DNA of 64,000 bases, taken from assembly GCF_964355755.1 (NCBI RefSeq), contig NC_092680.1, positions 8,657,001 to 8,721,000 of the forward strand. Reading direction: 5' to 3'. This document shows positions 35,101-55,346 of this stretch, one piece after another. The position numbers were made by a program, and so were the translations under genes. Numbering within the stretch: the stretch's first letter is position 1; each line of letters begins with the position of its first letter. The stretch is from Antedon mediterranea. Taxonomy: Eukaryota; Echinodermata; Crinoidea; Comatulida; Antedonidae. Below the pieces are notes generated by a model. It did no database searches. It was not told the origin of the DNA and saw only the letters and a list, made by a program, of their open reading frames with translations.

Positions 35101-37484
35101 AGATAAGGAACAAACATATATGGAGTTTAAAAATACATTTTTAAAAATTCTTAAATTCTATATATAAATAGTAAAAGTAGCAAATTAGATAACAAAGTTC
35201 CCACAAAAAATTGAAAAAATATCAAAATCATTTAAAGAAAAAAAATGTAAATAAATAAAAATAAACAAAACGAATCCAAATATTACCACAATTGCGGAAA
35301 AGTAACTGTCATGTGTGAACAATATCGAGGTCATTTGTATGATTTAGGTTTCCGAAGCATTCGATTTATGTCCACTTTTTATTTTACCTATAGGTCAATA
35401 ATTAAAAACCAAAATATCAAATAATACACCACGAAAAAGTATATAGTTTGGTATGTTATACTTTCGTTAGTGTCTGCGCATCATCATCATCATCGACTCT
35501 CACCACTATGTGCTCTTTTTCGTTTGTTTTAGAGTCCATAAGCAGCTGTAGTTTTATTATTCCAATACTTCACATCTTATTTCTATAAATTACCAATTCA
35601 TATTTTATCATTGAAACTGCCCACTGATTGACCGAGTTCAACATGCATGTCCCTCTCATCTGTTTCTTACCCTCCTATTCAATATGTACATTCACGATGT
35701 CACTTTCTGATGCAAACCCTAGATTAATATTCACAAAACACAATATTTTTCTTTAGCTCTTTTATTTTCGTAAAGTCTTAACACAATAAAGTCTCCCGTA
35801 TCCAGTATTGCTTTTATTTTTTAGCTTACAGACATTTCAAAGTGAAGGAATATTTCGTGTATAACAAAACCAAGGCCGTAAATAGTTCCGAATTTTATTC
35901 TTGATACAATTTTTTTTAAATACTTTTGTACTTTTATCAGGCAACAGTGCGCTTTATTATACTTACTCCTTCCATGCGAATTGGTATATAACAACATATT
36001 AAGGCAGAAAAGGACGAGTAACTCCTAGTAATAATTATTATTATATTAATTTATGAAAGAAAAACAACTTATGAGGACGGAGAGCGGGTGGGGTTTTGTT
36101 TTGTTGCTTCCAGAATATTCTTTCCTCCTATCTTTCAAAACGGATACAGTAGGATTTAGTACAGCCAATCGTTTACAAATGTCGATCCATTTCTAACAGT
36201 TTTTAGTCGCATGCAAACGCGACTCTACAGTCCATGTTGATCGTTCGGCCGGCAAACACTAACCCAAATTTGAGCGCGCGACTTGCAGCCATATGTTCGT
36301 ACTATACACCACCCGTAAATGCGTCGAATTTGAGTGCGTTATAAATTGTTACCTTTTTTTCATGGTATTTTCCAATTAAGACTTACTTTCTTTAGTTTTG
36401 CCTCTTTCATTTATCATAATTTAATCACCATATTATTATGAATTATGAATTTTGTATAATTTCATCAAAAAAATATAAATCTGTTACATTGTAGTAATTG
36501 AAAGAAATCCAATATTTATTTGATTTGAATTGATACCTGTACACGTTTTTTTTTAATGAATTAGATCTGTCAAAATGAAATTCTTGATGATAACGGAATA
36601 CATTCGATAAAGAAGGCGTGCAAACAAGACGATTCCTGTTATAGTGAGGAAGATAAAAACGCCGATGAATGTGGTTTACACTTGCCAAAGTCTCATTGTC
36701 GATACTGTTGCACTACTAATTTGTGTAACCAGCCTGAAAATCCTTCTTCTAATGTGCCGACCACAATTCCTAATTCAGAAGTACAGACATCAACCATACA
36801 CCAGACGACAGGTAAGTTTTGATTGGTAATGCGTGGTTCCCACTGGCGACGCAACACAAGGACGTAACGCAACGCAAGTGAATTGACCAATCACAAGCGA
36901 TGGCTTATTCGCTTGTGATTGCTAACTGCCTATAACTTCGCTTGTCATTGGTTAAAACGCTTGCGTTGCGTTTACGTCCTTGCGTTACGTTCTAGTGGGA
37001 ACCAAGCTTTAAAGGAATAAAAACAGATTTATAATGTAACCAGCCGAAAACAATGATTACAGTAATCTCTAGTTACTTACCATATCCATTGGTGTTTCCC
37101 GGGGAATGTTTTTAAATTTGGTCATTGCAATTGATATGCTAATAGTCAAACTCTCTCTCAGAGCCACACTGGTAACTACATGTTTATTTGTTTATCTATT
37201 AATTCTTTTTTTCTACTGTAGAACTTGGAGAACTAAACTCCAGATCAAACTTATTAATGGTCGGCAAACATGATGCCGGGCTAATAATGCATCGAATGAT
37301 CCGGACACTTAGTAGCCAGTCCGCCATCAGATGTGCGCAGCAATGCATGATGGAACGCCAGTGCGTATCTATTTACTTCGGTAATAGTTTATGCCAGCTG
37401 AACACATATACTGAAGAAAGTTACGGAGAAAATATTAATTCAAATGTTAATATGAAATATTACACAATTAGCAATTGGCTCTAA
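29140..37484 (+). CDS. Secreted Ly6/three-finger plus PAN/apple domain protein (4 exons)
   Basis: Exons 29140-29197, 32269-32357, 36565-36811 and 37222-37484 join in frame to 218 residues. Exon 1 encodes a hydrophobic signal peptide (MLYFIKVFFLLNMFVDSVQ), with likely cleavage before GVNCYVCDG. Exons 2-3 form a Ly6/uPAR three-finger domain: CYVC at the start, spaced cysteines, and the terminal HCRYCCTTNLCN. A Ser/Thr/Pro linker follows (NPSSNVPTTIPNSEVQTS). Exon 4 gives a PAN/apple-like domain with SAIRCAQQCMMERQC, VSIYF and LCQLNTYTEE. It ends without a GPI-anchor-like hydrophobic tail, so secretion is predicted. Partner and role unknown; such domains bind proteins or carbohydrates in adhesion and innate immunity. 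Exon 1 rests on frame, donor (GTAAGT) and signal-peptide logic. Large introns hold SINE, LINE and MITE copies. Confidence 0.75.
30505..30940. repeat. Three diverged tandem units of about 150-180 bp
   Basis: Each unit has TTTCATTTAATGTATGA (or close), GCGTTCTACGA, CAAAAATGAATGAAAA and ATTACAATGAATAT. Located in intron 1 of the TFP-PAN gene. Origin not recognised. Confidence 0.65.
31685..31968 (-). mobile_element. 5S-rRNA-derived SINE
   Basis: On the minus strand, 31968-31845 reads like 5S rRNA: CACGTTGAAAAACACTGG, TTCTCGTCAGATCACCGAAG, GTTAAGCAACG, AAGCCTGG and GATGGGAGACC in the correct order, with a small insertion after CCGAAGT. It runs into a non-ribosomal body (CTTAGTTATTATGCCTCAGA, CCCTTGATCAATGTTAGGAC, CAATCAAGGTGCTTTAAACA). 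This is the SINE3/Deu-type design. The same 3' body is at 53345-53510. Confidence 0.8.
33150..33262. mobile_element. GACCGACA-family repeat, copy 1
   Basis: Contains GACAGACCGACAGACCGACA, TAGTGAACTATAGAGTCG and CGCGACTAAAAATG, shared with copies at 36200-36315, 49335-49450 and 60525-60655. Confidence 0.6.
33270..34762 (+). mobile_element. Degraded CR1/L2-type LINE, 5' truncated
   Basis: Frames on the plus strand encode reverse-transcriptase pieces: YFDFSSAFNTIQPHILINKL near 33322-33390, a VADDSAMIGLI block (palm ADD box) near 33920, DQLIKKLNTRL near 34030, and a C-terminal part SHPLHSDLLRC and NSFLPAGIKKFN ending at 34469. The 3' end is AATAAAAGTTATCTGTATC with a (TCTGTA)n tail, as in CR1/L2 LINEs. 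Frameshifts and an inserted repeat (33580-33900) break it; inactive. Sits in intron 2 of the TFP-PAN gene. Confidence 0.8.
33580..33900 (-). mobile_element. LINE 3'-end fragment inserted in the LINE
   Basis: On the minus strand, TCATTGGCTGCGATTTTGAT then GCAATAAAATGAAATGAAAA resembles another LINE 3' end with a simple tail. It splits the reverse transcriptase frame of the older plus-strand LINE. Confidence 0.5.
36200..36315. mobile_element. GACCGACA-family repeat, copy 2
   Basis: TTTTTAGTCGCATGCAAACG, GACTCTACAG, GGCAAACACTAACCCAAATT and TGAGCGCGCGACTTGCAGCC; a reverse-orientation relative of the copy at 33150. Confidence 0.65.
36832..37008. mobile_element. Palindromic MITE, family B copy 2
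   Basis: Left end GTGGTTCCCACTGGCGACGC, right end GTTCTAGTGGGAACCAAGC; inner arms carry AAGGACGTAACGCAACGCAA and its complement. It lies in the last intron of the TFP-PAN gene, starting about 20 bases after the donor of exon 3. Confidence 0.8.
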
Positions 37485-37856: not shown

Positions 37857-40800
37857 CTACTTTTCAAGAAACTCTAAAATTAATCTATTAACTTCTTCTG
37901 GTTTTTCTTGTTGAACACAATGTCCTGCATCAACGTACTGTTTCGAAACGTTTGTTAGGTATTTATCAAGTCCTTTAGTTATGTCCAATACCATGCCTAT
38001 ATCATTCACACCCCATATTAATAGCGTTGGCGTGTGGATTACTACATCTTCCTTAAGCCACGAGGATGATGGAGACCTAAGGAGGCATCGGTAATAGTTT
38101 ACTTGGCCTGAAACAGCTCCTAAGAATAAAATATGTATGTATAGTGTTTTTTACATTTACAATGGGTGTAATAAAATGATAAATTAGCATTATTTATTTA
38201 TACTCCACTCTACGGATTGAAAGAAAATAAATGTTTGAAATGAAAAATGCTGATTGCTACCTGGTCTAGACATACTGTATTTGTACACTTCAAGCTCTTC
38301 TTCGGTGAGATCCACATTTTTGAATAATTTCTTAAGGAACGGGTAGTCACCAACTGAAAGCATAAACTCTGGTAGGAAAGGAACTTGAAAGAAGAATATG
38401 TACCTAAATACAATCAAGATACTTGTTATTATTACACTACTTACAGAACAGTGTCAGGAATCATCAGGTGCGTTCATTTTGTAGTAAAATTGATAACTTT
38501 GGTTGGAAATAACATTTCTTACTTGTCAGAATACCGAATATAAAAATACAAATATTTAAATGGTGGACCCATTAAGTTAAAACAGCACTTTATTTTCCAA
38601 GTTTTAGGCCCAGGGCTACGCTATTTTAAACTATTACATGCAAATGTGACAGAATCAAATTGTTGTCACTACATTTGAAGCATTACTGTCTACAATGTAT
38701 GACTGGTTGATGAAGTAAACTTTAAAATGTGTGCTGCCCTCTCCTCATGTCATTGTTTTAAATTATACAGTAGCTATACATATAACAAAATGTACAGCCA
38801 CAGTTATTTGAAGCCATTATGCGTACAATCTGCCCCTTGTAATTATATTCAAACATTAGGGAAAATAGACTTGTATATTCTTCGGAGTTGCTGCCCATTT
38901 GCAAATTACTGATGAAATCAAATAATTGCTGCAGTACAATAAGAGATGTACAGATATACTGAAACCTCATAAGCACCAGCGATTGTCCAATACATTATGC
39001 TCCTTACCATGACATCATAAATTGCGTTAGATTTGTTTTCAAAACTTCAAAATATCTTGTAGGATGTGGTCCATTAGCAACGATCAGTTTGTCAACAATA
39101 TCAGGATACCAGCTAGAGCATGTATAGGCAATAATGCTTCCCCAGCCGTGACCAACTAACGTGCAAGAGCTATATCCAAGAGCTGATATCACTGCCTTAA
39201 CATCACCTGGAAAATGTTAAAATAGTAACAATAATTTTAAATTAAATATTATGTTCTTCCATATCTAATCTTTGATTTGAAACTTTGTGTATCCAGCTTT
39301 CCAGAAGTCCTTTAGTTGGTGGCTCAGAATGTTTCAAAATGCATTTTAAAATGTACGACAGATTTAGGAAAATAAATTTTCAGTTTACTACTTCTCCTTG
39401 TGTAAATGAAACTCACCAACCAACAGTTGCATTTTGTAAGATTCTCTGCCACTTGGACGATCTGATTCGCCAAACCCTCTCATGTCTATTGCCACACACC
39501 TGAGGTTTAGGATTAATAAAAAGTTGGAAGTAGAGATGCAAATAATATGGTTACTATATTAACCAAACTTTATGTTTCATGATCAAGTCACCAACCCTAT
39601 CTGAAATACACTTGTAAGTTAACTCATTTAGTCTTAAAATTTGAAAAAAACCCTAAATTATTATTATTTGCCTATTCAATTATGATACCTATAAATAATT
39701 TGTTTTTCTTGAGTCTAAATTGAGCTTGGACATTACAATTAAATAATATGTTCAGCAACCAAACTTTGAAGAAGTTAGTGTGGCACTTGATCAATCATCT
39801 TAATTAGGTTATATGCATTATCATGCATATAACCTCTTGATTCTGTCAAAATCTTTATTTATTTATTTATTTATTTATTCTTTCCTTAGCACTATTTTGT
39901 CCGTGAATTATCTTGATATCAGTTTCATCTATCTAAGTCAATTTTTCAGAGTATATTCCTTATGGCCAGGAATCGATGTGGTTATGTTTTCAGGGTGCGC
40001 AATCAAACATTACGCGGTGTAATCATATTCTTCACAAGCATGAATCACTTTTAAACAAAATTTGGTACTCATAAATTTCAGGTCATATTTCATCATATGG
40101 CAATACAATTACGTGCGTAGCGCATGTAACGCATGCGTACGCGCGCTTAAAATGTTGAAAATTGTCAGAATTTATTTTCGATGAAATTAGAGTAGGTTTC
40201 AGGCAATTTTAAGCGTTTAAAAAATTGCCATGAGTGCGCAGATTTTTGCACGCGCACTGCGCGTCAAACGTTAGTGCGCACTGTTTTTGTCCGATTACTG
40301 TTGTATAACCTTTCTTTAATAATATCATCATATTTCATTCACTTTTCAACGCGAAACAGCGTTATACGAGAACGTCAAAAGTGACAGGCTATGCACGTGT
40401 AAGTTAACAAAATGGTGAAAATATGCTAAATTTTAAAATTAATATATATCGTTAGAATGCTCGGGAACACCTATTTTTTATTTAATTTTCTTGAAGTGTA
40501 TGTATCATATGTATGATTTATTATGAAATTAGAAGAACAAAAGTTGATTAAGTCATCATTAATGGCATATTAAATTTAACAAAATTAATTTCGACAATCA
40601 AACAAATTATAACATTTTCTTAGGCCAAAATAACAAACTTAACATTAACTTTCTTCCTTAAGAAGTTCATATATTAAAGTTAAAAGTATATAGTTTGACA
40701 GTGCATCATTTTTTTAAATTTTTAAAGATGTCATCATAGTAAAACATTATAATTCATTGCGGTATGTAATAATCTATTTGCACCAAACTGGTTACTGCAT

Positions 40801-42189
40801 AGTAAATACACGGAGGAATCTTTCCATAACTTTTAGTCGGTTGTGTATGGCTCGGTGGTCTTTGCTCGTGTCTATAGCATTCAAGTACCGAGTTCGAGTC
40901 TCACCTTGGGAAACCAAACGAAATAAGATTTTTTTTATTATCCGTATTGGTTGTTCAATGTATTTCTTAGTGTATAGATTATACACATGATTTATAATGA
41001 AATCTAAATAAAAACACAAATGTGGTTTATGACATTATATACACAGAAAGATTTTTGATCGGATTATGATACCGGCTATTGTATTTGCGTTAGCAAGATC
41101 CTATCATATATTATAAATAACTAACGATTCTGAGAAAATCAATCAATCAATCAATATATCTTAAATCAATCAATTATCTTTATTTAAATCAATGCATATA
41201 ACCTATAATTCGTCATAGTGACGAATTAAATCTAGTTTAAAATTATCTTTGTTTGTGTGTACTGACGAAAGAATATAAACTAGAAATTATGGTGTGTACA
41301 ACAGCACTCCAGTTTAAATGCTTGGTTACCACTAGGACACAAGACCAACACAATTGATTTTTACCAATCACAAGCAATTTTATTATACAGTATGAACCAT
41401 TGTCATAAATAGTTCAAGTCACTTGTGTTGCGCTTACGTCCTTGTGTCATAGTGTGAACCAACCAAGATGTAGTAATGACTGGCCCAGCAGAATTCTTTT
41501 ACCTATATAAATGACAGAAAGCCTTCATCTGGTGTCGCCATGAGTACCAGCATTCTGGAAAGCCATGCAAGAACAACATCAAAGGCTTACTGCGATCTCC
41601 GGCTGCAACGTAATGAAGTTTCAGACCCTGTTTGAAAATGAAACAATATAGTTTACAATACAAAAATTTGTTTTTTTTTCTATCAATTGTTTAACTGTTC
41701 CTATTATAATTGGCAAAATCTTATAATTCTTGATAATGATAATAGTATGTATGTAGTATAGTTACAGTGTTACAATAAGCATGGAGGTACCTCTATGCAG
41801 CAAGTACTAGGCCTACTAACTAGGCCCTATATCATATGCTAGAAACTAAGAAAGAATTTTTCTAACAAAGTTGAGCTTCAATTCAACAGGGGAAAACCCA
41901 CGGATCTTGATACAGTTTTTTTTTTATATATGTCTAGGCGAAATACATTTTGTGACTGACTTACATTAACAGCCAGAAATCCGTGCTTTCCGTGCGATTC
42001 CTCGTCCATACAGCCAGGCCATGTCCCACGTCGTTTACGCTTGAAAAACCAACCAGGGCCGTTCATAATGAACGAGTACGCTAGTTTTAGAAGAACAAAG
42101 TATCCATATATAAGGCCTAGAATTAACGAGTAATAATAACCGGGAGTTTTTCCAATGAAAAACCCACAACTTCGCTTCAGAGACAACAT
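37857..42189 (-). CDS. EPHX4-like alpha/beta hydrolase 1, nucleophile Asp replaced by Gly
   Basis: Exons 42189-41965, 41627-41503, 39499-39417, 39206-39008, 38403-38261 and 38119-37857 give 345 residues (human EPHX4 is 362). One N-terminal membrane segment (YYYSLILGLIYGYFVLLKLA) precedes the hydrolase fold. HGFPECWYSW (oxyanion motif, H96) is intact, as are NYYR, the acid-side WGVND (D298) and His in DAGHCVQQE (H325). The nucleophile elbow, GHDWGG in epoxide hydrolases, reads GHGWGS here, so G165 stands where the attacking Asp should be. Family enzymes open epoxides by an Asp-ester intermediate; this protein is therefore predicted not to do so. All splice sites and the frame are intact, so it is not an obvious pseudogene. 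The exon 5 edge is accurate to one base. The neighbour at 48902-55346 is its paralogue. Confidence 0.9.
39806..41238 (-). mobile_element. 1.4-kb repeat family, copy A
   Basis: Inverted relative to the two copies at 42612-45514 and nearly identical to them. On its own strand it runs from CTAGATTTAATTCGTCACTA to AATCAAGAGGTTATATGCAT, with TAGGTTATATGCAT near one end and ATGCATATAACCT at the other. It contains a tRNA-like segment. It sits in intron 2 of EPHX4-like gene 1 and codes for no known protein. Confidence 0.8.
40843..40912 (+). repeat. tRNA-like segment in 1.4-kb repeat
   Basis: A-box-like TATGGCTCGGTGGTC and B-box-like GAGTTCGAGTCTC spaced as in a tRNA. Pairing of the acceptor ends is poor; probably a Pol III promoter relic. 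The same segment recurs in copies B and C on the other strand. Confidence 0.45.
41325..41464. mobile_element. MITE, family B copy 3
   Basis: Ends GGTTACCACTAGGACACAAG and CTTGTGTCATAGTGTGAACC; centre with ACCAATCACAAGCAATTTT and CAAGTCACTTGTGTTGCGCT. In intron 2 of EPHX4-like gene 1, about 40 bases from exon 2. Confidence 0.65.
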
Positions 42190-42611
42190 TTCAATTCAAT
42201 TTGTAAAAAAAATTTCAAATGTGAAGCAAACAGGGACCTAGAACGACGACAATTGAAAAGTTATCTAACTTTGTTTACGTACTTCCGCGCGAAACAATAC
42301 AATCAGCTGGACTCGATGAACCGTGACAACGACAACACGACATATTATCAAAGAATATTATCGGTGACTACTTCTTCTTCGCATGCAGCTAAAGTAAAAT
42401 GACGTCACGTTAAAGTGGGTCGTCACAGAGTCTCATGCATATTAATGAAGCAAACTTGCTGAGAGTTTTTTCACACACGCGACGCGAGATTTATCGAAAA
42501 ATAATAATTGTTTTCACTGCTGTGGATAATAAATAATATACTTTAATTTTAACATGACAGGAGAGCCTATATACTTCCAGTGCGAATAAAAAATAATAAT
42601 AATGTACAATA

Positions 42612-44024
42612 CTAGATTTAATTCGTCACTATGACGAATTATAGGTTATATGCATTGATTTTAATAAAGATAATTGATTTTTAAAAGATATTTTGATTCA
42701 TTGATTTTCTCAGATTCTTTAATTATTTATAATATATGATAGGACCTTGCTAACGCGAATACAATAGCCGGTATCACAATCCGATCAAAGATCCCTCTGC
42801 GTATAATGTCATAAACCACATTTGCTGTTACATAATAATAAAGACATAAGTTATTTTTTATCTAGATTTCATTATAAATCATGTGTATAATATATACACT
42901 AAGAAATAAATTTGAACAAACAATACGAATAATAAAAAAAAAATCTTATTTCGTTTCCAAAGGTGAGACTCGATCTCGGTACCTTGAGTGCCATAGACAC
43001 GAGCACACACCACCGAGCCATACACAACTGTCTAAAAATTGTAGAAAAATTCCTCCGTGTATTTACTATGCAGTAACCACTTTGGTGCAGATAGATTATT
43101 ACATACCGCAATGAATTATAATTTTTTACTATGATGACATCTCTAAAAATGTACAAAAATGATGCACTGTCAAACTATATACTTTTAACTTTAATATATG
43201 AACTTTTGGAGGAAGAAAGTTAATGTTAAGTTTGTTATTTTGGCCTAAGAAAATGTCATAATTTGTTTGATTGTCGAAATGAATTTTTTTTAATTTAATA
43301 TGCAATTAATTATGGCTTAATCAACTTTTGTTCTCTTAGTTTAATAATAAATCATACATAAGATACATACACTTCAAGAAAATGAAATAAAAAATATGTG
43401 TTCCCGAGCATTCTGACGATCTATATTAATTTTAAAATTTAGCATATTTTCACCATTTTGTTAACTTACACGTGCGTAGCCTGTCACTTTTGACGTGCTC
43501 GTATAAGGCAATTACGCGTTGAAAAGTGAATAAAATATGATGATATTATTAAAGAAAGGTTGTACAACCGAAATCGGACAAAAAGAGTGCGCATTAACGT
43601 ATAACGCGCAGTGCGCGTGCAAAAATCTGCGCACTCATGGCAATTTTTTAAACGCTTAAAATTGCCTGAAACGTACTCTAATTTCATCGAAAATAAATTT
43701 TGACAATTTTGAACATTTTAAGCGCGCGTACGCAAGCGTTATATGCGCTACGCACGTAATTGTATTGCCATATGATGAAATATGACCTGAAATTTATGAG
43801 TACCAAATTTTGTTTAATTGTGATTCATGCTTGTGAAGATATGATTACAAACGTGATTTCGTAAAATCGCGCGTAGACCGCGTAATTTTTGATTACGCAT
43901 CGTGAAAATATAACCACATCGATTCCTGGCCATAAGGAATATACTCTGAAAAATTGACTTAAATAGATGAAACTGATATCAAGATAATTCACGGACAAAA
44001 TAGTGCTAAGGAAAGAATAAATAA
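42612..44024 (+). mobile_element. 1.4-kb repeat family, copy B
   Basis: Head-to-tail with copy C and nearly identical to it; lacks the last 40 or so bases found at the end of copies A and C. Includes CACTATGACGAATTATAGGT, a tRNA-like segment near 42958-43027 (minus strand) and a CG-rich stretch GCGCGTACGCAAGCG. Confidence 0.8.
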
Positions 44025-45514
44025 ACTAGATTTAATTCGTCACTATGACGAATTATAGGTTATATGCATTGATTTTAATAAAGATAATTGATTTTTAAAA
44101 GATATTTTGATTCATTGATTTTCTCAGATTCTATAATTATTTATAATATATGATAGGACCTTGCTAACGCGAATACAATAGCCGGTATCACAATCCGATC
44201 AAAGATCCCTCTGCGTATAATGTCATAAACCACATTTGCTGTTACATAATAATAAAGACATAAGTTATTTTTTATCTAGATTTCATTATAAATCATGTGT
44301 ATAATATATACACTAAGAAATAAATTTGAACAAACAATACGGATAATAAAAAAAAAAATCTTACTTCGTTTCCCAAGGTGAGACTCGATCTCGGTACCTT
44401 GAGTGCCATAGACACGAGCACACACCACCGAGCCATACACAACTGTCTAAAAATTGTAGAAAAATTCCTCCGTGTATTTACTATGCAGTAACCACTTTGG
44501 TGCAGATAGATTATTAAATACCGCAATGAATTATAATTTTTTACTATGATGACATCTCTAAAAATGTACAAAAATGATGCACTGTCAAACTATATACTTT
44601 TAACTTTAATATATGAACTTTTGGAGGAAGAAAGTTAATGTTAAGTTTGTTATTTTGGCCTAAGAAAATGTCATAATTTGTTTGATTGTCGAAATGAATT
44701 TTTTTTAATTTAATATGCAATCAATTATGGCTTAATCAACTTTTGTTCCCTTAGTTTAATAATAAATCATACATAAGATACATACACTTCAAGAAAATGA
44801 AATAAAAAATATGTGTTCCCGAGCATTTTGACGATCTATATTAATTTTAAAATTTAGCATATTTTCACCATTTTGTTAACTTACACGTGCGTAGCCTGTC
44901 ACTTTTGACGTGCTCGTATAAGGCAATTACGCGTTGAAAAGTGAATAAAATATGATGATATTATTAAAGAAAGGTTGTACAACCGAAATCGGACAAAAAG
45001 AGTGCGCATTAACGTATAACGCGCAGTGCGCGTGCAAAAATCTGCGCACTCATGGCAATTTTTTAAACGCTTAAAATTGCCTGAAACGTACTCTAATTTC
45101 ATCGAAAATAAATTTTGACAATTTTGAACATTTTAAGCGCGCGTACGCAAGCGTTATATGCGCTACGCACGTAATTGTATTGCCATATGATGAAATATGA
45201 CCTGAAATTTATGAGTACCAAATTTTGTTTAATTGTGATTCATGCTTGTGAAGATATGATTACAAACGTGATTTCGTAAAATCGCGCGTAGACCGCGTAA
45301 TTTTTGATTACGCATCGTGAAAATATAACCACATCGATTCCTGGCCATAAGGAATATACTCTGAAAAATTGACTTAGATAGATGAAACTGATATCAAGAT
45401 AATTCACGGACAAAATAGTGCTAAGGAAAGAATAAATAAATAAATAAATAAATAAATAAAGATTTTGACAGAATCAAGAGGTTATATGCATATCATGCAT
45501 ATAACCTAATTAGT
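44025..45514 (+). mobile_element. 1.4-kb repeat family, copy C
   Basis: Second unit of the tandem dimer. It ends with (AAAT)n, AATCAAGAGGTTATATGCAT and a terminal hairpin GTTATATGCATATCATGCAT leading into ATAACCTAATTAG. Differences from copy B are few, so the duplication is recent. Confidence 0.8.
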
Positions 45515-48901: not shown

Positions 48902-51900
48902 CTACCCTTTCAGAAATTCACTCATTATTCTATTCACTTCGTCTGGAAAGTCTTGTTGTACCCAATGACTGGCGCCCTCAACAATTTTCAAAGTGAAATT
49001 GTCTACATACTTGTCGTGTCCCTTGGTCATTTCTATTTCTAATGCGCCATCTTTGTCACCCCAGATAAGAATTGTTGGGCATTTAATTGGTTTAGATCGT
49101 AATGGCTTTGTTTGCAAGGCTGATCGATAATAGTTGATAGCACCAGTTATAGTACCTATAAAAAGGAAAATTTTAACAAAATTAGAATACAAAAATACAT
49201 CACTTTAAATGTAGAAATTCAATGTTTCATTGTTGTGAATGTGACTTTGTTGTGTCTAGTTACTCCTATATATAAATCAATAAATATCTAAATAATGTGA
49301 ATTTAAAACTAGATTTATTGTCCCTCCTTCGAGTAGAACAAGGCAATAAACATGACTGCAGTCGCATGCTCAAATTTGAGTTAATGTTTACCGACCGACC
49401 AACATAGTGAGCTGTAGAGTCGCGGCATTGCAAGCAACTAAAAAGTAGGATCTACAGCAGAAAAGTGATCTTTGAATAGGGGTTAGTCGTAATGTTTGAT
49501 TTTTACACAATTTATAAAATGAAATTGATGATAAATGTAGACCTTTTTGAGAGAATGAAAATTTCATAGCCTCCAAGTCCGTCAGTGTGAACATATCTGG
49601 AGTCCTGATTCCAAAAGACTTTCCCATGAAGGAACCCTTAAGGAAACTGTAGTCCTTTGCTCTCAGCATTAGCTCTGGCAAATAAGGAAGTTGAAACAAA
49701 AACATGTACCTGTAAAGAGAACACAAATTAAAATTTAATGTCCCAAAATAAAATACCATAATAACCCATAACTTATTCAATCAAAATATGTTTAAAAAAT
49801 CAAGAAAATAACAAACCATGATTTCCTAAATTGACTCCAATGAGATGACATGTGCTTTGAGAAACGATCAGGATGAGGAACATTGTTAATAATCAATTTA
49901 TCAACAAGTTCAGGATACTCCATCGCAACATACCATGCAATCGCACCTCCCCAGTCATGGGCAACTAACACACAAGAACTATACCCTAGTTCTGATATAA
50001 TGTCTCGTATATCATCTACAGTATAAAAAAAAAACAGAGAACAAAATGTTATTAGCCATGATCTGCTGGTGAAAACTGAAAGTATGAAACAAAGTAGTGG
50101 TTTTGTTAGTATTTAACATTATATTATGCAAATAAAACTTCACTGCCAAAGACTTTGAATTGTTTATGTAGAACGTCTCACATGTGCTTATCCTGTGGAC
50201 AGGGTTGTTACATTTAAGGAGGACAGTGATTAAATTTGCTTATTTGTTAGTCTTGCAATTTTCATAATATAGTAAAAAGAAAGAGGAAACAGTTATGCAT
50301 TAATTTTGTTTACTTACCAGTTAGAATTCTACTTGAGTAATTTTTCATGCCAACAGGGCAATCTGATTCACCATAACCACGCATGTCAACAGATACAACT
50401 CTATACAGTAAAAGAAATAGACAATTCATCAGTATTTGAGATGATATAATTTTGTTTATGATAATTTAACTGCATACGTAGGTAGTTTTGTGACAGAGAG
50501 GTATGTAAGTCAGATGCATGGTTGGTCCTATTCTGATGCAATTGTACTGAATTCTAAGTATATTGAGAACCGAAATAGTAATGCTCAGGTGAGAGTACAC
50601 AACCTCCGGATACTAAGTCAAGTAAGACAAGGAGATCCAGGAAGAGATAAATAAATGTAAATGGGTTGAGCATGGACAACAGGCCATAATACTGTATAAT
50701 GCTACACCAGAGGAAGTCTTTTGAGCCATCTTCTATTGATTCATTCATACAGTAAAGGCAATAAAAGCTATACCTATATTCACTCTTAAAAGCCTTCATC
50801 TGGTATCGCCATGAGTACCAGCATTCTGGGAACCCATGTAAGAACAACATCAAAGGTTTGTTTTCATCTCCAGCTGCAACATAATGGATACGAATGCCCT
50901 GAGGAAAAAGAGAATTATGAATATATTGAAAATTAATACTAGGCTATAGTAAATACATTTTTTTTAACTCCTTTTTACCACCACTACTTATTAAAATTCT
51001 GTTTTTTACAATTTTTAAAATTACTTCAGGATAAAACACAAAGGTAAGCTAAGTAATTGGATTGTTAATGATACAGTGATTTTAACATTTACAGTATAAA
51101 GAAATATTGTAGTATGTAGGCCTAAATACTACAGTACTACAGTCAGTAGTATATTCACTGTACTTATTGTTCTTAACTTGATAAAAAAGTTTTGTCAGAT
51201 ACAGAGGGCGCCTTTTGTCTTTAATATTTCATTCATCATCAAGATAGATAGGGCCTCCTACTAATTAGACCAAAGATTGTATAGCGCAAGATAGGTAACT
51301 GGGCGAGACGTTTGTAATCCATGGACGCCATTCCGGCGGACAAATTTGAACCGGAATAAAGTCGTTGTCAAGGCAATATCGTACGATGTTTCGGTCAAAG
51401 AACAAAGTTTTCTAACCAAGCATGTCAATGTAAACACACAGAATTAATCGGAAAGTGTCAAGTTCCCAAAGAAACTTTTATTTTACTTTGTTTACATAAT
51501 TTCTTCCCTTTTCCATGAATCAATCCTCAAGATGGTTAACCACAGATACTTCGAAATCACATTAATATACCTATCCGTCCGCGGTCAGTCTAATTACCGA
51601 AAACAACCGAAAACAACCATAAACAACTGAAAACAACCATAAACAACTGAAAACAACCATAAACAACCGAAAACAAACCGAAAACAAAATAACAATATCT
51701 AAATACCGAAAACAAATATGATGCAGCTACTACTAGATTGACCTCGCACGCCAAACAAATTTCTACAGTATATTTTTTAAATGTCGCCCTCTATTGATAG
51801 GTGTTTCTAAAGCCAACAAGACCGCGCGCGCAAAGCCAAGGAGACCATACGAAATGGAAGTGTGCACAAAATTTAACTCAATATCGTACAAACTCAATGA

Positions 51901-54900
51901 TAACACCGTGCATTTACTTACAGAATCTACAATATGTCTGTAGTCGTAAGACCCTTTGAAAAATAAAACATTATCATAAAGAAAAAAACATGAAATAAGG
52001 TTTTAAAGATACAAGTTGGAAAGTTAAAGTATTCCTACATATAATATAAAAGAAACTACATAATAGTAGCCTAACACTCACACGCACCACGCATAATATA
52101 TAAGCATTTTAATATATAAGCATTTTTAAGTACTGTAATTCGATATAATCACTTCTAAAATATTTTTTAGTATTTTATAACAATTTTAACACTTTGAAAC
52201 TCATAATCTACAATAATTACACTCTTGTTATTATAATATTGTTTGGTATATGTTTTTAACTTAATATCATTTATATTAAATCAGTATCTACTTGTATACA
52301 GTAATACAAAGATTTGAATGTGAAAAAAATAGTAGGCCTACCGTATTTATTCGAATAAATTGAATAAATGCAACCCAACCCCTCTAATTAGGGCGACAAT
52401 TACACAAACTAATTTTTACTCTATTTAACACGTCGTGATGTAATTGTATTGTAGGTTTCATATTGAAGAGGTTCCGATATATCTATTGCACCATTTTACA
52501 CTAACTCCCCACCCCATACCCCCCCCAACCCCCCACCCCGCATCCTCAAATAAACCATCCATAAAAAATAAAAAGTGCATTAAGCTTATTCAATCGGTTT
52601 CCCAAAATTTTGTTGAAGAACCCCATTATCCACGCCATCAATGTGCCAAAAGCTAGTAATTTGATTAAATGTTCTAAGTTGTGTTTTATGTCGCACATTT
52701 AATAATTCCACATCTCGTACGTTTTACTCTTACTTTAACAATGAAACGTTTAATATTAAAGGTACCTTAGTTTCTCGTGTTATTAATTCTGTTTGCACTT
52801 ATTAAGTCTATCTTTTTATATTAATTATTGTTAAAGTTAGTCGAATTTTAAAAATGTATTTACTCCAGTATTTGTCACAGTGTTAAATTTACTAGATAGC
52901 ATTTACAGATTATTATTGCAATTTTAAATATGTTTATATTGGTTTGTACATGGAGGTCCTCCATGGTTTGTATAAAACTATTTCCTAAAAACATACGTTC
53001 TCTGTCTAACAATTTTTAAAAGCAATGCAATCGTATCCGATTTAGATTGACAACTTAGCATTGTAAATATTCAGTTTTGCAATTAGCATTAAGTTATAAA
53101 ATTCGATAATTTGTATTTTTTCTCCATATAGAATATAAATCACTTTGCATTCAACAAACATGTGTATTAAGTTTGTTCTTTTTTAAAACAAAATTCACAA
53201 ATTGATATTTTATTGAGTTTCAACCTATACCTAAAAAAACAATAGATTTCAGTATGTTTTGTGTGGTTTTTTTTACAAATTAAATTTAGGTTGATAATAC
53301 ATTTGATATCTTGAATCAAGTTTGTATACTTCAAAAACATTATATTTAATGCCTTTCCTCGGGTCAAGAGACGAGATAAGCCCTTGACCAATGTTAGGAC
53401 CAATCAAGGTGTTTTAAACAGTCCTGGCTTTGTTTGTATCAAACCTGTTAGTGGCGGTAATTATCGCTGTTGGTTTTTATTTTAATAAAATAAAAAATAA
53501 AAAAATAAAAAACGAAATATGTTACAGATTTTCAGTTGTGTTCTCATGTATTATTTAAAACATGAAAAATGTTATTTATTTACTACACTATGTTATTTAA
53601 ATTTAGTTTGCTGTAGATAAACAAACATGGCTAGATGTTGATATCTACTGTAATATCTTGAATCGAGTTTGTACCTCAAAAACAAAATGAAATTTAGTAC
53701 TAAAAAGATGTTACAGACTTGAGTTGTGTTCTCATGTTCTCTCAATATGATTAGGCCTAAGGTTAATAAAGATTTACAAGTTAATGTAACATGTTTGTGT
53801 TTTCACTTCCTGTCATCATTTTTGTCAGACTATTATATATATATATATACAGTATATATATTTCAACGGAGAAAAACATTCATTACAGTAACTCATTAAT
53901 CAGGGGAAACAACATTACGTTTAATTTTTAAACAACTTAATCAAAATTAAGCTGTCGCTGCAAAAGGGCACTTAAAATGAATCCTCTCTAAAACGCACAT
54001 TTACGATTTGCACAAACTGTTTTACATATAAACACAATATACACAAATAAACGTCGTAGAAGTGGTGTATTATTGTCATGCGGTACGTACATTTGAAATC
54101 GCTGAAATTATACTATGTATTCGAGAACCATCCCTAGTTGTTAAAATTGTTATAAAATACTAAAAAATATTTTAGAAGTGATTTAATATCGAATTACAGT
54201 ACTTAAAAATGCTTATATATTAAAATGCTTATATATTAATTATTATGCGTGGTGCGTGTGAGTGTTAGGCTACTATTATGTAGTTTCTTTTATATTATAT
54301 GTAGGAATACTTTAACTTTCCAACTTGTATCTTTAAAACCTTATTTCATGTTTTTTTCTTTATGATAATGTTTTATTTTTCAAAGGGTCTTACGACTACA
54401 GACAATTCCTTGTCTCATTCATGTAACATATATATTAGATATCTAACATATTGTAGATTCTGTAAGTAAATGCACGGTGTTATCATTGAGTTTGTACGAT
54501 ATTGAGTTAAATTTTGTGCACACTTCCATTTCGTATGGTCTCTATCTCCTTGGCTTTGCGCGCGCGGTCTTGTTGGCTTTAGAAACACCTATCAATAGAG
54601 GGCGACATTTAAAAAATATACTGTAGAGATTTGTTTGGCGTGCGAGGTCAATATAGTAGCTGCATCAAATTTGTTTTCGGTATTTAGATATTGTTATTTT
54701 GTTTTCGGTTTGTTTTCGGTTGTTTATGGTTGTTTTCAGTTGTTTATGGTTGTTTTCGGTTGTTTTCGGTAATTAGACTGACAGAATACTTCTTATCATT
54801 TTATCAGAACTAAACTTACCCACCCACCCACAATGATCATCTCAGGCATTACAAATCTCTTAGTAGGCCTACTAGCTGTTATATGGCCACCGAATAACAA

Positions 54901-55346
54901 AGTTTAATAAATAATAGACTATTGAATTAATTTTCAGTGGATTATTTGTGGGGAGGGGGGCCGGGTATAGGCCTACTATAAAACAAAAATACACCTCTGA
55001 CGTATTTAGCTTTGCTTTTTGCTTCTCAGTTTGAAATGAACATGTCATAGGGGAAACCTTTGCTCCTCCAACTTCTACGAGACGACCTAATATTATAAGG
55101 TAGGCCAAAAGTGGTGGTTTAAATATCGTTCTTACTTACTGTTTGCAGGTTCAAAAAGCCGTGGATTCCAAGCGCTGGGTCGTTCATGCATTCTGGTCGA
55201 GACGTGCGTGTTTCACGATGAAAGAAAGTCTTCGGACCGCTTTTAATTATATCACACAATATAGCAAATGAAACAATTAACCCATAGTAAACAGCGAAAA
55301 TCCATTGAATTAACCACATTGTAAATAATTTTAATAACTTAGCCAT
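48902..55346 (-). CDS. EPHX4-like alpha/beta hydrolase 2, catalytic residues intact
   Basis: Exons 55346-55140, 50898-50774, 50400-50318, 50015-49817, 49709-49543 and 49155-48902 encode 344 residues. Exons 2, 3 and 4 are exactly as long as in the paralogue (125, 83 and 199 bases) and every intron phase agrees, showing tandem duplication. An N-terminal membrane segment (WIFAVYYGLIVSFAILCDI) is followed by CMNDPALGIHGFLNL, HGFPECWYSW, the nucleophile elbow AHDWGGAIAW (D159), NYYRSAL, WGDKD (D296) and GASHWVQQD (H324): the Asp-Asp-His triad of membrane epoxide hydrolases. Predicted to sit in the ER membrane and open lipid epoxides; substrate unknown, as for vertebrate EPHX4. The exon 5 donor GTCTAC is weak. 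Intron 1 is 4.2 kb and holds a large foldback element. Confidence 0.92.
49335..49450. mobile_element. GACCGACA-family repeat, copy 3
   Basis: GCAGTCGCATGCTCAAATTT, GTTTACCGACCGACCAACAT, AGTGAGCTGTAGAGTCGCGG; in intron 5 of EPHX4-like gene 2. Confidence 0.6.
51585..54781. mobile_element. 3.2-kb foldback-like element with 600-bp arms
   Basis: Starts TCAGTCTAATTACCGAAAAC and ends with the complement. The outermost 90 or so bases of each arm are tandem copies of ACAACCGAAAACAACCATAA-type units; the rest of the arms (to about 52192 and from about 54136) are near-perfect complements, e.g. CACACGCACCACGCATAATA. The right arm has a 40-base insertion near 54410. The core (52200-54130) has a SINE tail and no transposase. 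In intron 1 of EPHX4-like gene 2. Confidence 0.85.
53345..53510 (+). mobile_element. 3' body of the 5S-type SINE
   Basis: AAGCCCTTGACCAATGTTAG, GACCAATCAAGGTGTTTTAA and CAGTCCTGGCTTTGTTTGTA match the body of the 5S-derived SINE at 31685-31968 in opposite orientation, followed by an A-rich tail (AATAAAATAAAAAATAAA). The 5S head is missing. Confidence 0.65.

Follow-up and report, generated by a model that had tools for sequence, protein, structure and literature searches.

Epoxide hydrolysis in the alpha/beta-hydrolase fold proceeds by attack of an Asp on the epoxide, by which a covalent intermediate is formed. EPHX3 and EPHX4 have a hydrophobic N-terminal stretch ahead of the hydrolase domain, and the fold has also given rise to proteins with a broken triad, such as neuroligins, NDRG proteins and the gibberellin receptor GID1, which serve binding or signalling. 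The epoxide hydrolases of the fold use an Asp-His-Asp/Glu triad, usually together with a pair of tyrosines, and exchange of the nucleophile Asp for Ser in Cfl1 (Cfl1-D123S) sharply cut its activity (PMC8244358). Cfl2 of Burkholderia cenocepacia, a protein of the epoxide hydrolase family with its catalytic residues retained but little activity, has been suggested as a possible pseudoenzyme (PMC8244358), and among the mammalian epoxide hydrolases EPHX4 alone is described as never having been shown definitively to be active (PMC13162623). No EPHX protein lacking the nucleophile was described in the literature that we searched.

Here we describe gene A, located in a stretch of 64,000 nucleotides from the crinoid Antedon mediterranea (the window), in which this nucleophile is replaced by Gly. 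In contrast to Cfl2, gene A is without the nucleophile itself, and in contrast to neuroligins, NDRG proteins and GID1, which come from other branches of the fold, it retains all catalytic residues but one. With EPHX3/EPHX4 (ABHD9/ABHD7) it shares a length of about 345–360 amino acids, the N-terminal anchor, HGFP, the lid tyrosines, the Asp-His pair and the cap, whereas it differs in its Gly nucleophile position and in a Cys replacing the Trp that follows the catalytic His, as judged from a comparison with prokaryotic relatives and the paralogues of the same genome. Its fold, anchor and motifs would place gene A in the EPHX3/EPHX4 type; the original prediction had called it EPHX4-like, a label that is based on these features, by which EPHX4 is not separable from EPHX3 in the set compared.

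Structure of gene A

Gene A (42189-37857, minus strand) consists of six exons with an unbroken frame of 345 codons plus a stop. All five introns are GT-AG, with phases 0, 2, 1, 2 and 1; the frame is free of stops and frameshifts and the splice sites are intact, as originally predicted. Exon 1 (41965-42189, donor GTAAGT) comprises codons 1–75 with the N-terminal hydrophobic anchor, exon 2 (41503-41627) carries the oxyanion motif HGFPECWYSW (residues 96–105), the HGFPE of which is invariant in 78 relatives (see below), and exon 3 (39417-39499) leads to exon 4, which occupies exactly the interval 39206-39008. The latter encodes the nucleophile elbow, LVGHGWGSIIAY, read as GHGWGS, together with Ser168 and Tyr172, which are likewise absent from the relatives. 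Codon 165, at the nucleophile position, is GGC (39147-39145), so that the predicted Gly165 is indeed present. Exon 5 (38261-38403) opens the cap with lid Tyr212 retained and is 24 bases (8 codons) shorter than the corresponding exon of the neighbouring gene B, and exon 6 (37857-38119) provides NYYR (Tyr268), the acid Asp298, the base His325 and the stop.

With regard to the protein, Pfam Abhydrolase_1 matched residues 90–332 over the full profile (97 bits), and the alpha/beta-hydrolase fold extends across the full domain in proteins A and B. The top PDB match was the prokaryotic epoxide hydrolase 5ng7 (E 9e-68, elbow GHDWGG), to which the whole catalytic domain aligns, while NCBIfam gave below-cut-off matches only, to other hydrolases, and no relative was found in viral contigs. 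A hydrophobic stretch precedes the domain in proteins A and B alike; in protein A the best 19-residue hydropathy value was 1.83, for residues 23–41, giving a membrane anchor positioned as in EPHX3/EPHX4. Protein A also has the acid and base of an epoxide hydrolase (Asp298 and His325), HGFP (96–99) and two lid tyrosines, but Gly165 takes the place of Asp in the G-x-D-x-G elbow. The alignment thus bears out the predicted retention of HGFP, Asp298 and His325. As for the tyrosines, the prediction had assigned them to NYYR; this motif is present and contains Tyr268, but the second one, Tyr212, lies outside it in SWY. We take Tyr212 and Tyr268 to be the lid pair from what is known of the family, and both fall in invariant columns.

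The surroundings of the gene contain several other features. A unit of about 1.41 kb is repeated here: two near-identical copies lie in tandem about 420 bases ahead of the start codon (42611-45456), and a further copy, in inverted orientation and 93% identical, lies within intron 2 (39854-41189). The unit is probably a recent mobile element and could alter the expression of gene A. On the other side, the open frames at 36565-37484 seem to be exons of a different gene, encoded on the plus strand; one stretch in them is Ly6-like and rich in cysteine (CCTTNLCN), and another is PAN-like (CAQQCMMERQCVSIYF).

Paralogues and relatives of gene A

Gene B (48902-55346, minus strand), the canonical paralogue of 344 amino acids, also has six exons (55346-55140, 50898-50774, 50400-50318, 50015-49817, 49709-49543 and 49155-48902). 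As the original prediction held, it keeps the nucleophile: codon 159 is GAC (Asp; 49956-49954), a single transition apart from the GGC of gene A. A search of the organism's own genome (354 Mb, 18 contigs) revealed a third paralogue, gene C, on the plus strand of contig C11 at 9014392-9018439 (L027 1893-5940), 0.3 Mb from genes A and B. Gene C retains the nucleophile Asp, but the lid tyrosine, which is Tyr in 78/78 relatives, has become Phe and the conserved PHP reads AYP. Two of the three copies, A and C, have thus lost different catalytic residues.

Intron positions and phases are common to genes A, B and C, and a retrocopy origin of gene A was rejected on this ground. Identity is 47% between A and B, 43% between A and C and 61% between B and C, and in the tree B pairs with C (SH-aLRT 99), which leaves A as the outer branch of the three. 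Since A and B are only 47% identical and B is the sister of C, the duplication that gave rise to A must be old. The predicted origin by tandem duplication was therefore not upheld: A and B adjoin, but A represents an older lineage and is not a recent tandem twin of B, whose sister lies 0.3 Mb off.

Intron 1 of gene B contains what appears by eye to be a large inverted repeat (51600-54790) with short repeats of the type AACAACCGAAA at its two outer ends, likely another mobile element. Contigs C3 and C4 of the genome also carry two single-exon genes (L014 1339-2337 and L023 1267-2304) that resemble Renilla-luciferase/haloalkane-dehalogenase proteins and have the motif CHDWGS.

Prokaryotic relatives were gathered by means of the patterns HGFPECW and [IL]HYVAAGD, neither of which includes the elbow; 80 were obtained, and the 78 with open frames were aligned. 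They are up to 45% identical to gene A (mean 39%). All 78, picked by patterns blind to the elbow, have Asp at the nucleophile position, so that the Gly165 of gene A is not a matter of chance; paralogues B and C have Asp there as well. Among the 40 columns conserved in at least 90% of the sequences, A differs at three (Y126F, D165G and W172Y), B at none and C at three; Phe126 occurs in two relatives as well.

Constraint on gene A and changes around its triad

Genes A and B are equally distant from the relatives in the tree (2.58 for both), which shows that there has been no overall speed-up in A. In a three-taxon codon model, omega was 0.19 on the A branch versus 0.17 elsewhere, although with a dS of about 2 on the A branch the absolute values are rough. 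Neutrality (omega = 1) on this branch was rejected at a cost of 15 log-likelihood units (lnL -3275.3 vs -3260.2). The dN/dS check that the original prediction called for places gene A close to B and C. Moreover, about 95% of simulations with about 0.05 neutral substitutions per site ended in a broken frame or splice site, which excludes neutral drift beyond roughly 0.05 substitutions per site for gene A at roughly the 5% level. Long neutral decay is rejected by these two results together. Gene A has been under long constraint; it should be underlined that the omega of the A branch covers the time both before and after the loss of the Asp.

We also examined residues of protein A unseen in the relatives at columns conserved in at least 70% of them, with distances counted along the sequence and not in the structure. 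There are nine such residues (165, 168, 172, 209, 247, 296, 300, 301 and 326), six of which lie no more than four residues from a triad position (P about 0.0006). The clustering persisted when residue 165 was left out (P about 0.003); P was 0.016 at a 50% cut-off and 0.15 at an 80% cut-off, where four residues are counted. The same count reached at most two in the 78 prokaryotic controls, zero in B and two in C. The changed residues beside the triad are Ser168, Tyr172, Val296, Gly300, Met301 and Cys326, and since most of these sites still have the usual residue of the family in B and C, the changes are assigned to the A lineage. Neither a single recent substitution nor a sequencing error is sufficient as the sole cause of such clustering, which points to an active site remodelled in a long-constrained gene as opposed to decay at random or one isolated error.

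Possible roles of protein A

The product of gene A is probably not a normal epoxide hydrolase but either a non-enzyme maintained by selection or an enzyme whose chemistry has changed. The original prediction had proposed the same pair of possibilities, and the missing nucleophile, the constraint and the remodelled triad agree with it, except that the constraint is not specific to the period after the loss. We consider it very probable, judging from the residues present, that protein A is without normal epoxide hydrolase activity: with Gly165 in place of the attacking Asp, the hydroxyalkyl-ester intermediate of the established mechanism could not form. The elbow residue normally adopts a strained backbone conformation that is well tolerated by Gly, so that the fold should survive D165G.

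The explanation that we prefer, and to which we give an even chance of being right, is a membrane-anchored pseudo-epoxide hydrolase that would bind a lipid or a partner without covalent turnover. An epoxy-lipid or another lipid may still be bound in the cavity via the lid tyrosines without being converted, and protein A may then serve as a sensor or a sink, or regulate the active paralogues as their partner. From the sequence data, it seems fairly likely that gene A is functional and under selection, while ligand binding or regulation as its actual function is put forward more tentatively, at somewhat less than an even chance. The retained acid, base and both tyrosines fit ligand binding, a nucleophile-free reaction or a very recent loss; the clustered changes on the side of the triad favour the former two over recent loss. 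Against the pseudo-epoxide hydrolase stands that D165G is one transition and that the constraint seen on the A branch could largely predate it.

The same one-base change underlies the alternative that codon 165 mutated lately and that gene A is either on its way to losing its function or polymorphic, its protein no longer being selected. The four other catalytic residues are intact, as expected after a very recent loss, and drift to about 0.03–0.05 substitutions per site often left the frame intact in the simulations. However, the absence of stops, frameshifts and broken splice sites excludes neutral change beyond about 0.05 substitutions per site at roughly the 5% level, and several triad-side changes found on the A lineage only imply a longer history than one hit, although these could have arisen while the Asp was still present. 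We regard a recent null as rather unlikely on balance.

Some enzymes of the alpha/beta-hydrolase fold operate without a covalent intermediate, and Asp298-His325 and the two lid tyrosines could conceivably run a nucleophile-free reaction in the space left by Gly165, through general-base activation of water or as a lyase or isomerase. The retention of Asp298, His325, Tyr212, Tyr268 and HGFP while the neighbours of the triad changed argues for such a reaction, as a purely structural protein would need no such full set of catalytic residues. On the other hand, the nucleophile site has no acidic, Ser or Cys substitute, and we know of no epoxide-hydrolase relative with nucleophile-free activity. We consider this alternative unlikely, and slightly more so in its specific form, in which Gly165 would admit water or a second substrate, with a new non-covalent reaction on lipid epoxides or peroxides catalysed by the Asp-His pair and the two tyrosines.

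If gene A were normal and codon 165 had been misassembled or miscalled, a single base would be at fault, but Ser168, Tyr172 and Cys326 would each need an error of their own in a six-exon frame that is otherwise clean, which makes this explanation highly improbable. Least probable is a second exon 4 that restores a canonical elbow by alternative splicing, an arrangement with counterparts in other genes, as six-frame reading of the gene A introns and the whole-genome search revealed no HDWG-coding exon belonging to gene A, and it is refuted within the assembled gene.

Gene A would extend the known non-enzymes of the alpha/beta-hydrolase fold to the epoxide hydrolases. The intact but nucleophile-less gene A, the canonical gene B and gene C, which has lost a lid tyrosine, make up a natural comparison set, which lets one ask whether this branch does more than covalent hydrolysis.
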